From Geothrix sp. 21YS21S-4 (GTDB taxonomy: Bacteria; Acidobacteriota; Holophagae; Holophagales; Holophagaceae): a stretch of DNA of 64,000 nucleotides. Positions 19,957-59,629 of this stretch are shown here, piece by piece. Each line of letters starts with the position of its first letter. Within the stretch, counting starts at the first letter, position 1. Where the stretch lies: positions 2,294,001 to 2,358,000 of the forward strand of contig NZ_CP132719.1 in the NCBI RefSeq assembly GCF_030845995.1. Direction: 5' to 3'. The notes beneath the pieces are model-generated. The model saw only the letters and a program-made list of their open reading frames with translations. It searched no databases and was not told the DNA's origin. A program made the position numbers and the translations under genes.

Positions 19957-21228
19957 TCAGACCGGGCCGTCGTCACACTCCGCGCTCGGTGCGGCCTGCT
20001 TCCGGCGGTGCCGGAGCCCGACGCCCGCCGCGGCGAAACCGGCGGCGGCCCCCACGCCCAGCGCCCAGCGCGGACCAAAGGCATCGGCGACGCGGCCCAC
20101 CAGCGGCGCGCCGAGGGGCGTGCCGCCCACGATCAGCGCCAGGAGGATGGCCACCACCCGGCCCCGCATGGCGGGCTCCGTGGAGAGCTGCACCAGGCTG
20201 TTGGTGGAAGTGGTGAGGATCTGGGCGGAAGCCCCGACCAGGACCAGCGCCGCGCCGAAGAATCCGTAGCTGGGCATCACCGCGGCGAGGCCGCAGCCCA
20301 GCCCGAACACCGCCGCGGCGCCCGCCAGCAGCCCGATCCGCGGCTCCGGCCGCGACGCGGCGAACAGCGCGCCCGCCACGGAGCCGATGGCCATGATCGA
20401 GGTGAGGAGCCCGAACTGGGCGGCGCCCGCATGGAACACCGTGGCCGACATGGTGGAGATGAAGATGGGGAAATTGAGCCCGAAGGTCCCGATCAGGAAG
20501 AGCATCAGGAGAAGGGCCTTGAGATCGGATCGCCCCCACACGTAGCGGAACCCTTCGGCCAGGCTTCCCGCCGCGCGCGGCAGCTTCGGCTTGCGGTGGA
20601 GATGCGCCACCCGAAGCAGGCTCAGCGAGCCCAGGACCGCGGCGAAGGACGCGGCGTTGATCAGGAAGACCCAGCCCGTGCCCACCTTGGCGATCAGGAC
20701 ACCGGCAACGGCCGGGCCGATCATCCGGGCGGCGTTGAAGGAGGTGGAATTCAGGGCGACGGCGTTGGACAGATCCGCCTCCCCCGCCAGCTCCGACACG
20801 AAGGTCTGGCGGGCGGGCGCATCGAAGGCGGCCACGCAGCCGAGCAGGAGCGCGAACCCGTAGACGTGCCACAGCCGCACGCGGCCCGTGACCGTCAGCA
20901 GGCCCAGCCCCAGGGCCAGTAGCCCGAGCGTCGCCTGGGTGGCGAACAGCAGCTTGCGCCGGTCGAAGTGATCGGCGGCGAACCCGGTGAGGGGCAGCAG
21001 CAGGATCTGCGGACCGAACTGGAGCCCCATCACGGCGCCGACGGCCGTGGCGTTGTGCGAGGTGAGCTGGGTCAGGACGAGCCAGTCCTGGGCGATGCGC
21101 TGCATCCACGTGCCCACGTTGGAGACGATCGCCCCGGCCGCCCACACGCGGTAGTTGAAGCTCCGCAGCGCCCGGAAGGTGCCGCGCCAGGAGGCGCTCC
21201 CGGGCCCGGCCGGGCCGTCTTCAGCCAC
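19957..21228 (-). CDS. MFS exporter (EntS/MFS_3-like)
   Basis: This 423-residue transporter has about twelve hydrophobic helices and the family's N-terminal pattern ALRSFNYRVWAAGAIVSNVG followed by TWMQRIAQDWLVLTQ. That pattern is common in MFS_3 efflux proteins such as enterobactin exporter EntS. The loop ADHFDRRKLL is the MFS motif A equivalent. The start is taken as GTG at 21228, overlapping the end of the upstream hydrolase gene by 8 bp. It is last in the marR-hydrolase-MFS operon, so it probably exports the compound that the MarR protein senses. Confidence 0.82.
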   Translation of the reverse strand: MAEDGPAGPGSASWRGTFRALRSFNYRVWAAGAIVSNVGTWMQRIAQDWLVLTQLTSHNATAVGAVMGLQFGPQILLLPLTGFAADHFDRRKLLFATQATLGLLALGLGLLTVTGRVRLWHVYGFALLLGCVAAFDAPARQTFVSELAGEADLSNAVALNSTSFNAARMIGPAVAGVLIAKVGTGWVFLINAASFAAVLGSLSLLRVAHLHRKPKLPRAAGSLAEGFRYVWGRSDLKALLLMLFLIGTFGLNFPIFISTMSATVFHAGAAQFGLLTSIMAIGSVAGALFAASRPEPRIGLLAGAAAVFGLGCGLAAVMPSYGFFGAALVLVGASAQILTTSTNSLVQLSTEPAMRGRVVAILLALIVGGTPLGAPLVGRVADAFGPRWALGVGAAAGFAAAGVGLRHRRKQAAPSAECDDGPV

Positions 21229-21784
21229 GGGCGCCGTCCAGGAGGGCCAGGATCTCGGCGGTGGTGCCGGTCTCTCCCAGCCGCGGGAAGACCCGCGCCA
21301 CGCTGTTGGCGTGGGCGTCGGCATCCGTGTCCGTCATGGCGTCGATCGCCAGGGTGACGTTGAATCCCAGCTCGTGGGCGTGCCGCGCCGTGGATTCGAC
21401 CCCGCTGCAGGTCGCGATCCCCGCGATCACCACCTGGGTGACGCCCAGCGCCGCCAAATGCTCGCGGAGCCCGGTGTTTGTGAACGCGCCCCAGGTCCGC
21501 TTCGCCACGACGTGATCCTCCGGCTGCCGATCGAGTTCCGGCGCCAGCTCGAACCACTCGGGAGAGGTGGGTCCTCCGCTGCGCGTCCGCTCCACGCGGC
21601 CCGGCGCGCCGCCGACCACGGTGACCAGGACCACCGGCAAGCTGCGCCGCCGGAAGGCGGCGGCCAGGGCGGCGGCGCGCGCCACCACCTCGTCCGCGGG
21701 ATGCACCGTGGGATAGGCCCGGATGCCCTGCTGCAGGTCGATGACGATGAGGGCCGTCCTGGGATCGAGCGTGGTGAGGGCCAT
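21221..21784 (-). CDS. Isochorismatase-family cysteine hydrolase
   Basis: This 187-residue protein has the cysteine-hydrolase triad: Asp in ALIVIDLQQGI, Lys in VVAKRTWGAF, and Cys in GIATCSGVESTARHA. The fold is used by isochorismatases, nicotinamidases and related amidases; the substrate is not evident. It lacks the aryl-carrier domain of siderophore isochorismatases. The ATG lies 20 bp after the marR stop, and its 3' end overlaps the exporter start. A detoxification role, hydrolysing a compound that the exporter also removes, is inferred from context. Confidence 0.82.
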   Translation of the reverse strand: MALTTLDPRTALIVIDLQQGIRAYPTVHPADEVVARAAALAAAFRRRSLPVVLVTVVGGAPGRVERTRSGGPTSPEWFELAPELDRQPEDHVVAKRTWGAFTNTGLREHLAALGVTQVVIAGIATCSGVESTARHAHELGFNVTLAIDAMTDTDADAHANSVARVFPRLGETGTTAEILALLDGARG

Positions 21785-21804
21785 GGCGTCTCCTTGGGAA
21801 AAGT

Positions 21805-22251
21805 TCAGGGCTCGGCGAGGCGCGCGAGCAGTTCCACCGCGGCCGCGAGCTTCTTCTGCTCCGGCGGCGTGAGGTGGCGGCGGAGGGCGCGGAACAGCCA
21901 GTCCTCCCGCGCGGCGCGGGCCGCCTGCACCTTCTTCACGCAGGCGTCCGTCAGCGACAGGAGGGTCCGCCGCCCATCGGCGGGATCCGGCGCGCCGCTC
22001 ACGAGGCCCGCCGCCTTGAGCGCCGCCACCGTTTCGCCCATGGACTGGGGACGCATCCCCTCCGCCGCCGCCAGGGCCGACACCGTGGCGGGCCCGTCCT
22101 GCTCCAGGCGGACCAGGACCCGCACCTGGGTCCAGCTGAGGTCGCCCAACTGCGCTTCCCCGCGCATCCGGCGCTTCAGCTTGCCCAGGACGATCCTCAG
22201 CTCCGCCGCCAGGGCCGCCGTGCGCGCGAGTTCGGGATCCCGTTCATCCAT
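21805..22251 (-). CDS. MarR-family transcriptional regulator
   Basis: This 148-residue winged-helix regulator contains LSWTQVRVLVRLEQDGPATV, the recognition helix region MRPQSMGETVAALKAAGLVS and the wing DPADGRRTLLSLTD. Such proteins repress small-molecule-inducible efflux or detoxification operons and often their own gene. I choose the ATG at 22251; an in-frame TTG at 22266 would place the start inside the 38-bp palindrome. It is the first gene of the operon with the hydrolase and the MFS exporter. Confidence 0.88.
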   Translation of the reverse strand: MDERDPELARTAALAAELRIVLGKLKRRMRGEAQLGDLSWTQVRVLVRLEQDGPATVSALAAAEGMRPQSMGETVAALKAAGLVSGAPDPADGRRTLLSLTDACVKKVQAARAAREDWLFRALRRHLTPPEQKKLAAAVELLARLAEP

Positions 22252-22264
22252 GGGCGAGGCGTCC

Positions 22265-22302
22265 AATCATGAAGGCAACCTTCACAGGTTGCCTTCATGA
22301 TT
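22265..22302. promoter_or_regulatory. Perfect 16-bp-arm palindrome upstream of marR (operator candidate)
   Basis: AATCATGAAGGCAACC (22265-22280) and GGTTGCCTTCATGATT (22287-22302) are exact complements around TTCACA. It ends 13 bp before the marR ATG. It lacks a T-run on either strand, which favours an autoregulatory binding site over a terminator of the preceding arsR gene. Confidence 0.75.
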
Positions 22303-22375
22303 CAGTCCCGTCAAGCCGGCCGCCGTCCCTGCCGGAAGACGGCGGGAAATCTCCCGGCTCGGCCGTTCCAGTCCC

Positions 22376-22705
22376 CTACTTGAGGGCCTTGTAGCTGACG
22401 CGGGCGCGGGCGGTGACGTGGCCGCAGACCAGGTCGCACAGCTCGCCCACGAGGGGCATCGCGGGCGTGAAGTAGACGGCGTTGCCCTCGGGCTCGCGGC
22501 TGACCAGCCCCACCCGGACCAGGCAGGCCAGGTGCTTGGAGGCATTGGCCTGGGACAGCCCCGCGGCTTCGGCCACGGTCCCCTGGCTGAGGGCCCCGTC
22601 CGCCTCGAGCAGGGCGCGGAGGATCTTCAGCCGCGACACGTCGCCCATGGCGCTGAACAGGCCGCTCACTTCCTCGATCATGGGATTGCTCAGCTGATGG
22701 GGCAC
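22376..22705 (-). CDS. ArsR-family transcriptional regulator
   Basis: This 109-residue winged-helix repressor contains LFSAMGDVSRLKILRALLEA, the recognition helix LSQANASKHLACLVRVGLV and the wing REPEGNAVYFT. Cysteines occur in HLACL and in the C-terminal helix ELCDLVC, so metal, thiol or redox sensing is possible. The GTG at 22705 is preceded by AGGAG 8 nt upstream, better than upstream in-frame starts. No obvious target gene sits beside it except divergent kdsC, and it may act elsewhere or on itself. Confidence 0.82.
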   Translation of the reverse strand: MPHQLSNPMIEEVSGLFSAMGDVSRLKILRALLEADGALSQGTVAEAAGLSQANASKHLACLVRVGLVSREPEGNAVYFTPAMPLVGELCDLVCGHVTARARVSYKALK

Positions 22706-22738
22706 GACTTCAACTCCTGAAGCATATAGCCATCTAAC

Positions 22739-22752
22739 GGACGATTTCGTCC
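22739..22752. promoter_or_regulatory. Short palindrome upstream of arsR
   Basis: GGACGA-TT-TCGTCC is a perfect inverted repeat in the arsR/kdsC divergent spacer, 34 bp upstream of the arsR GTG. It could be an ArsR operator; short palindromes in GC-rich DNA also arise by chance. Confidence 0.3.
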
Positions 22753-22875
22753 AGCCGAAATCCGTCACCACACCAGAACTGTAGCTTCATCGAAGCACCC
22801 GGCGGACAAATATCCACCTCCATGTCGTTTTTGTCGGAGCGCCGGTGGCTTGGTAGGCTGATCCAGGAGATTCCC

Positions 22876-23400
22876 GTGGACGACCTGGACCTGCGCGCCG
22901 CCAAGATCCGCCTCCTCTGCACCGACGTGGACGGCGTGCTGACCGTCGGAACCCTGCACTACGGGGCGAGACCGGGGCACACCAAGGCGTTCAACGTCCG
23001 CGACGGCGCGGGGATCAAGTGGCTCCAGCGGGCGGGGATTCCCGTCGCCTTCATCTCGGGCCTGCACGCGGAAGCCACCATCCATCGGGCCCAGGATCTC
23101 GCGGTGGAGGACTGCTTCGCCGGGCACCTGGACAAGCGGCCCATCCTCGACCGGCTGTGCGAGAAGTACGGCCTGGAGTACGACCAGGTGGCCCACCTCG
23201 GAGACGACCTCGCGGACCTGCCCCTCCTGCGCCGGGTGGGATTCGCCTGCTGCCCTTCCGACGCCGCGTCCGAAGTGAAGGCCGTCTGCCACTGGGTGCC
23301 CGACGTGCCCGGCGGCTACGGCCTTCTCCGCGCCGTGGCGGAGCGCATCCTGAAAGCCCAGGGACACTGGGACGCCCTTCTCCGCAGCTACGAGGCCTGA
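22876..23400 (+). CDS. kdsC: KDO-8-phosphate phosphatase (KdsC-type HAD hydrolase)
   Basis: This 174-residue HAD phosphatase of the C0 (capless) group removes phosphate from 3-deoxy-D-manno-octulosonate 8-phosphate in lipopolysaccharide core synthesis. It shows the nucleophile motif LLCTDVDGVLTVG, the family-specific FNVRDGAGIKWLQRAGI, and the acidic motif AHLGDDLADLPLL. The GTG at 22876 with AGGAG 6 nt before it gives a KdsC-sized product; an ATG 54 nt upstream is also in frame. No other KDO genes are nearby. Related HAD enzymes act on other sugar phosphates. Confidence 0.82.
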   Translation: MDDLDLRAAKIRLLCTDVDGVLTVGTLHYGARPGHTKAFNVRDGAGIKWLQRAGIPVAFISGLHAEATIHRAQDLAVEDCFAGHLDKRPILDRLCEKYGLEYDQVAHLGDDLADLPLLRRVGFACCPSDAASEVKAVCHWVPDVPGGYGLLRAVAERILKAQGHWDALLRSYEA

Positions 23401-46904: not shown

Positions 46905-46940
46905 GATAAAAAAGGCGGCCCGAAGGCCGCCTTTTTTATC
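46905..46940. terminator. Perfect bidirectional Rho-independent terminator
   Basis: GATAAAAAAGGCGGCC (46905-46920) and GGCCGCCTTTTTTATC (46925-46940) are exact complements around CGAA. An A-run on one side and a T-run on the other serve both converging genes (the small membrane protein and the cold-shock gene). Confidence 0.93.
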
Positions 46941-59446: not shown

Positions 59447-59629
59447 CCGCCAAGACGCCAAGGGCGCCAAGAAAAGCAGGGGCTCAGGCTGCTTTTCTTG
59501 GTGTCTTCGTGTCTTGGTGGTGTTTCTTTTCCAGGCCATGAAGACTTTCACCACCAAGGCACCAAGTAAGGACAGAAGCTTCCTGCTTTAACTTGGCGTC
59601 TTGGCGGTGATCCCTATCTTTTAAATGCT
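59447..59629. repeat. Two adjacent CCAAGGC-type inverted-repeat elements (copies 4a, 4b)
   Basis: Copy 4a (about 59447-59524): CACCGCCAAGACGCCAAGGG then CGCCAAGAAAAGC faces GCTTTTCTTGGTGTCTTCG then TGTCTTGGTGGTG. Copy 4b (about 59545-59629): read on the minus strand it begins GCATTTAAAAGATAGGGATC, then CACCGCCAAGACGCCAAG, and ends CTTGGTGCCTTGGTGGTGAA. Together they fill the 250-bp convergent spacer between the chemoreceptor and adaptor genes. Confidence 0.75.

Follow-up and report, generated by a model that had tools for sequence, protein, structure and literature searches.

A 13-bp-stepped palindromic element upstream of a marR-hydrolase-exporter operon in Geothrix, a candidate operator for two MarR dimers

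MarR operators with more than one dimer and the palindrome in Geothrix

Several described systems, as set out in the available parts of the papers cited here, share features with the locus reported below. In Streptomyces avermitilis, three 13-bp palindromes lie in the promoter of the MarR protein SAV4189, two of them over the -35/-10 region, and SAV4189 represses its own gene together with a cotranscribed efflux gene (PMC6036246). Two MarR dimers of Rv2887 in Mycobacterium tuberculosis share about 30 bp of DNA, 15 bp each, and occupy different faces of the helix (PMC5526998). MepR of Staphylococcus aureus is a MarR repressor of an efflux gene and may bind as two dimers over -35/-10 (PMC3617543). 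QacR likewise binds as two dimers to a single long palindrome, through which an MFS exporter is controlled. However, QacR belongs to the unrelated TetR family, and its 28-bp site is located downstream of the promoter (PMC3617543, PMC6018408). Mutations in Rv0880 are linked to low-level resistance to indole propionic acid, according to the available part of the report (PMC6437058), which has no direct bearing on the MarR protein described here.

In the 64-kb stretch of DNA analysed here (the window), a perfect 38-bp palindrome is located next to a marR gene. The features concerned are as follows.

22265-22302, no strand assigned: perfect 38-bp palindrome, candidate two-unit MarR operator (from the sequence, orthologue comparison and a Markov control)
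22286-22294, minus strand: operator unit 1 (upstream), AGGCAACCT, centre 22290, with 5 of the 6 fixed bases of AGNTNANCT
22273-22281, minus strand: operator unit 2 (last, gene-proximal), AGGTTGCCT, centre 22277, with 5 of the 6 fixed bases
22257-22286, minus strand: stretch corresponding to the relatives' -35-like box (22286-22281, TGTGAA) and extended -10 (about 22265-22257), both poor matches here
21805-22251, minus strand: marR, a 148-aa MarR-family regulator (Pfam MarR, E 5.8e-10)
21221-21784, minus strand: isochorismatase-fold hydrolase, 187 aa (Pfam Isochorismatase, E 3.7e-40; best PDB matches 3txy and 1j2r YecD)
19957-21228, minus strand: MFS_3 exporter with a GTG start (Pfam MFS_3, E 3.2e-47)
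22376-22708, minus strand: arsR-type regulator, the upstream neighbour outside the module (Pfam, genus comparison)

The palindrome reads AATCATGAAGGCAACCT-TCAC-AGGTTGCCTTCATGATT, with perfect 17-bp arms and a TCAC loop. A sequence-only reading of the same DNA had described it as 16-bp arms around TTCACA; the palindrome itself stands, but the innermost T-A pair had been left out of the arms. With the loop limited to 10, no perfect inverted repeat in the window is longer, and among 20 first-order Markov sequences of equal length the longest arms reached 9-13 bp. The next-longest perfect repeats, at 46905-46940 (16-bp arms) and 59467-59501 (13-bp arms), have A/T-rich ends and resemble ordinary terminators. 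On the minus strand the order is arsR (last base 22376), palindrome and marR (ATG at 22251). The palindrome ends 14 bp from this ATG, in agreement with its earlier placement just upstream of marR. Read as units, it is the two-unit form AGGCAACCT-gtga-AGGTTGCCT, in which the two centres are 13 bp apart and unit 2 starts 30 bp ahead of the ATG.

The genes that the earlier reading had placed in one operon, marR, an isochorismatase-type hydrolase and an exporter, were identified as such by Pfam and are tightly packed on one strand. The likely GTG start of the exporter (21228, picked by eye) overlaps the hydrolase stop. The exporter assignment holds as MFS_3, but the label "EntS-like" is loose, as the EntS enterobactin exporter model, whose cut-off is 324 bits, gives this protein 103.6. 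The MarR domain scores above the Pfam gathering threshold in two models (PF01047, 39.4 bits versus 24.6; PF12802, 39.2 versus 27). Its nearest named NCBIfam relative by score is Rv0880 (NF052438), at 84.8 bits, far below the family cut-off of 220, and the Rv0880 structure (PDB 4yif) is a close sequence match to the window MarR (E 1.3e-17). The recognition region, predicted by analogy, contains an [R/K]PQSM motif; P68, Q69, S70 and M71 are invariant in 17 aligned subfamily members, and R67 is present in 16 of them. The hydrolase passes the Pfam isochorismatase model (138.3 bits versus 27) and, at 139.5 bits, stays below the cut-off of 195 for the PRK11440 equivalog. D16, K95 and C126 occupy the positions expected for the catalytic triad of this fold.

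A 13-bp-stepped unit and its promoter setting in related loci

Of 192 confirmed marR relatives, the best 80 were compared. Most of these loci are from Proteobacteria, two are from Acidobacteriota (Edaphobacter and Granulicella), and one is from a bin named Mycobacteriaceae. Upstream of marR, a palindromic 9-bp unit, AGNTNANCT, is arranged head to tail at exactly 13 bp. The unit was derived by eye from the same, mutually related loci in which it was then counted. In 77 of the 80 loci, a pair matching 10 or more of the 12 fixed bases was found no more than 150 bp upstream of marR, whereas the remaining 610,471 bp contain 4 pairs of this quality. Across these loci and the window, 110 unit pairs occur at 13 bp and 38 at 26 bp, each versus 0.2 in letter shuffles. 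Of the 77 loci, 31 have two units, 45 have three and 1 has four in one count, and with a different anchor the numbers are 29, 46 and 2. The three loci without a qualifying array are L014, whose stretch includes no DNA upstream of marR, L015 (best pair 7 of 12) and L082 (best pair 9 of 12).

Using tblastn, the hydrolase was detected in 62 of the same 80 loci, the exporter in 73 and both in 56; L015 is the one locus that has neither within the stretch compared. No locus of the 80 gave a tblastn match to the window's arsR. The stepped element supports the earlier claim of a marR operator, most of the 77 loci having the hydrolase, the exporter or both behind marR. In many relatives a small membrane protein (about 110 aa) is encoded between hydrolase and exporter (for example L009:4974-5306 and L010:5062-5394). 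It is also found behind the paralogous MarRs L151 and L152, and the two examples scanned gave no Pfam match.

Two features are conserved among the best 80 of the 192 relatives, the unit in its 13-bp steps and how far it stands from the start codon. Perfect symmetry, which the sequence-only reading had stressed, is not a conserved feature, and most relatives are imperfect. Units and flanks are each close to palindromic, which makes a two-unit array almost symmetrical as a whole, and this genome happens to have a completely symmetrical one.

More independent tests of AGNTNANCT are provided by a whole-genome pattern with a reversed control and by paralogues. The exact pair pattern was run on 32 whole genomes, a set that does not include the genome of L029, and gave 23 forward matches in 16 genomes versus 5 for the reversed control. 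Twenty of the 23 are at orthologous marR and two are, by coordinates, just upstream of a paralogous MarR. The remaining match, G093:C34:196193-196214, is at no orthologous or paralogous MarR found. A profile search of 16 of those genomes (E <= 1e-14) returned 23 MarRs, consisting of 16 orthologues, four closer paralogues (182-187 bits) and three distant MarRs (64-81 bits). The pairs upstream of the closer paralogues have 9, 12, 10 and 12 of 12 bases, at least 10 in three of the four, and their neighbours, judged by eye, differ, being MFS or DHA2-like exporters or a small membrane protein. The pairs upstream of the distant MarRs have 9, 7 and 7 of 12. A score of 9 can arise by chance, because the distant MarR with this score shows no array by eye. 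The subfamily is defined here by at least two AGNTNANCT units at 13 bp upstream of the MarR's own gene, and the window MarR has such a pair.

A search for the half-site elsewhere in the genome, as proposed earlier, showed no excess: the 13-mer ATGAAGGCAACCT with at most one mismatch has three sites beyond both arms, versus three for the reversed control. A wider regulon in this genome was rejected, as the ATGAAGGCAACCT sites are no commoner than in this control. The exact extra site is located inside a long open frame that resembles a sensor kinase (function judged by eye). The family pattern with at most two mismatches was uninformative in this genome (22 sites versus 22 in the reversed control). 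Within the window, a 12-base half-site with at most two mismatches has 8 matches, including both arms; the shuffle mean is 3.2, and 3 of 100 shuffles reach at least 8.

The array is also fixed relative to the gene. In 62 of the 77 loci (from the best 80 of 192), an in-frame ATG follows the start of the last unit at a distance of 30-33 bp (30 bp in 6, 31 in 30, 32 in 25 and 33 in 1). The 15 exceptions are ten Janthinobacterium loci, the pair L007 and L011, and the trio L040, L045 and L046. In the Janthinobacterium loci (L043, L048, L053, L056, L059, L063, L067, L068, L071 and L079) the ATG is at 53-54, and a short leader may be present. In L007 and L011 the ATG is at 24 bp, and in the trio the anchor seems to be one unit too far upstream. 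When the relatives are aligned on the last unit, a TTT[A/G]CA hexamer (-35-like, TTTACA) ends on the first base of the unit, and TGnTA (extended -10) is found at positions 16-20 from it. No ribosome-site signal was found between TGnTA and the ATG in the aligned loci of this set. A leaderless transcript seems likely, because with +1 at the ATG the boxes fall at the -35 and extended -10 places. The arrangement suggests that the relatives' array lies over a leaderless promoter covered by two to three MarR dimers, which with this +1 would have their centres at about -27, -40 and -53. In the window the ATG distance is retained, at 30 bp. Its own -10 and -35 are poor, and a scan for sigma-70 promoters found none here. 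The weak boxes are a real gap in the promoter case for this genome.

The described systems differ from this design in several respects. The SAV4189 consensus is TTGCCYKHRSCAA, to which the best match in the window array has three mismatches. SAV4189 protects two separate blocks 17 nt apart, in contrast to the uniform 13-bp ladder here, and its transcript starts 22 nt ahead of the start codon (PMC6036246, in the part available). The Rv2887 dimers lie on nearly opposite faces, one half of their site lacks palindromic symmetry, and the target genes are others (PMC5526998, likewise in part). For MepR, the available part of the source describes no 13-bp-stepped array, and the site at its own gene is believed to take a single dimer (PMC3617543). 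No description of a uniform 13-bp operator ladder was found in the literature searched, which consisted of open-licence papers. MarR proteins and multi-dimer operators are known, whereas a uniform 13-bp ladder fixed to a leaderless-looking promoter in many orders was not found described there.

Origin of the operon

Within the order to which the window belongs, this marR was found at E <= 1e-20 in 1 of 77 genomes, only its own. The window's exporter shares 80% identity over 374 columns with the Cupriavidus basilensis protein. A tree of 67 exporter rows, built from best-hit rows only, places it in a set of 28 rows (100/100), a placement that holds at the level of the whole set; the other members are proteobacterial except for one bin named Mycobacteriaceae. 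Edaphobacter is among the other 39 rows. Of 47 genomes of the genus, 45 carry the neighbouring arsR. In 18 of 19 relatives (L114-L132, by reading frames) arsR is followed by an outer-membrane efflux gene, identified by PF02321 in one scanned relative; the 19th, L124, is a short contig end. A search of the window's genome with the arsR-linked efflux protein, run without a positive control, gave no match. Given the single genome in the order, the exporter tree and the arsR neighbourhood in relatives, the operon was most likely acquired together with its putative operator and now stands at the place of the arsR-linked efflux gene. It seems that the marR operon took the place of an efflux operon linked to arsR, and that operator and operon travel together.

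Dimer number, rival readings and meaning

We consider it highly probable that the palindrome is the operator of the adjacent MarR, bound by one dimer per unit, with two dimers side by side over the core promoter. As an operator for its own MarR-hydrolase-exporter genes the candidate is well supported, and its two-dimer reading is fairly supported. The possibility of two-dimer control raised by the sequence-only reading gained ground, as the 13-bp-stepped units in 77 of the best 80 of 192 loci make more than one dimer likely. The array, its conservation and spacing, the fixed start-codon distance and the operon linkage are observed directly. Beyond these we infer that the window MarR binds the site with one dimer per unit and represses, that the transcript is leaderless and that the inducer is a small molecule.

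One MarR dimer would bind at each 9-bp unit AGNTNANCT, which extends to about 15 bp when its flanks are included, as in TGAAGGCAACCTTCA. With the two units spaced at 13 bp, neighbouring dimers would be turned by about a quarter of a helix from each other (taking 10.5 bp per turn) and would cover the core promoter of the operon. Without ligand, the dimers would block RNA polymerase. A ligand would release them, and the hydrolase and exporter would be made. MarR-family dimers bind palindromic operators and are released by ligand or oxidation; of this, the window and its relatives show the palindrome and its conservation. The suggestions of an aromatic inducer and a detoxification role for the module are guesses. 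One dimer per unit is plausible given the Rv2887 and SAV4189 arrangements, as far as the available parts of these papers describe them (PMC5526998, PMC6036246).

Alternatively, a single MarR dimer may be centred on the TCAC spacer of the whole palindrome, with each 9-bp unit as one half-site, which we regard as rather unlikely. The whole 38-bp element is perfectly symmetrical in the window, and almost all of the best 80 of 192 loci have two or more units. In addition, the two-unit loci show some covariation about the centre of the whole palindrome (columns 22-39, p 0.004; columns 18-43, p 0.007), figures inflated by the relatedness of the loci. However, most relatives in the same set have three units, so that the spacer is not the overall centre. 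Half-sites 13 bp apart would also be wide for a MarR dimer covering about 15 bp, as given for Rv2887 in the part of the paper available (PMC5526998). The strongest covariation, similarly inflated, is at +-5 of the unit 1 centre (28 of 30 versus 19.5 expected in the two-unit set, 29 of 46 versus 22.1 in the three-unit set) and is weaker about the other units. In the two- and three-unit classes alike, the distance between the conserved flanks and the outermost unit does not change. One dimer per unit is favoured because of this +-5 covariation and the position of the flanks.

The operator may instead have arrived with the operon and now be idle or only partly used, the promoter having decayed and the operon being read from the arsR promoter. 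Such a state would fit the -10 and -35 boxes, which are poor in the window and good in many proteobacterial relatives, as well as the apparent horizontal acquisition and the position of arsR on the same strand, 74 bp upstream of the palindrome. Yet the palindrome is more symmetrical than those of the relatives and has kept its 30-bp ATG distance, which suggests continued selection, and the promoter scan does not cover non-sigma-70 promoter types. We consider an idle or only partly used operator improbable.

That the inverted repeat is merely an RNA hairpin ending arsR transcription, the alternative named by the sequence-only reading, is very hard to sustain and was rejected: the palindrome does lie downstream of arsR, and its perfect 17-bp stem is stable as RNA (-43.3 kcal/mol for 91 nt, z -5.2), as expected of any perfect inverted repeat, but the terminator scan of 21700-22900 found no site, the T-run of an intrinsic terminator is missing on both strands beside the palindrome, none of 19 arsR relatives has this palindrome behind arsR in the stretch read, and the array precedes marR in 77 of the best 80 of 192 loci, none with a match to the window arsR.

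With one dimer per unit as the preferred reading, the sequence comparison indicates that 22265-22302 is very probably a real operator and one member of a subfamily-wide design. More tentatively, and with some doubt on our part, a MarR subfamily extending from Proteobacteria to Acidobacteriota may use a 13-bp ladder of two to four dimers over a leaderless promoter, in which the number of steps would set the strength of hold and ladder, regulator and module would form one mobile cassette passed between phyla. A single odd palindrome thereby becomes a rule, the PQSM motif with a 13-bp-stepped operator, that is testable in dozens of genomes. The natural two- and three-unit versions offer a direct test of dimer number against repression. 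Together, the motif and the stepped operator flag a widespread hydrolase-exporter operon.
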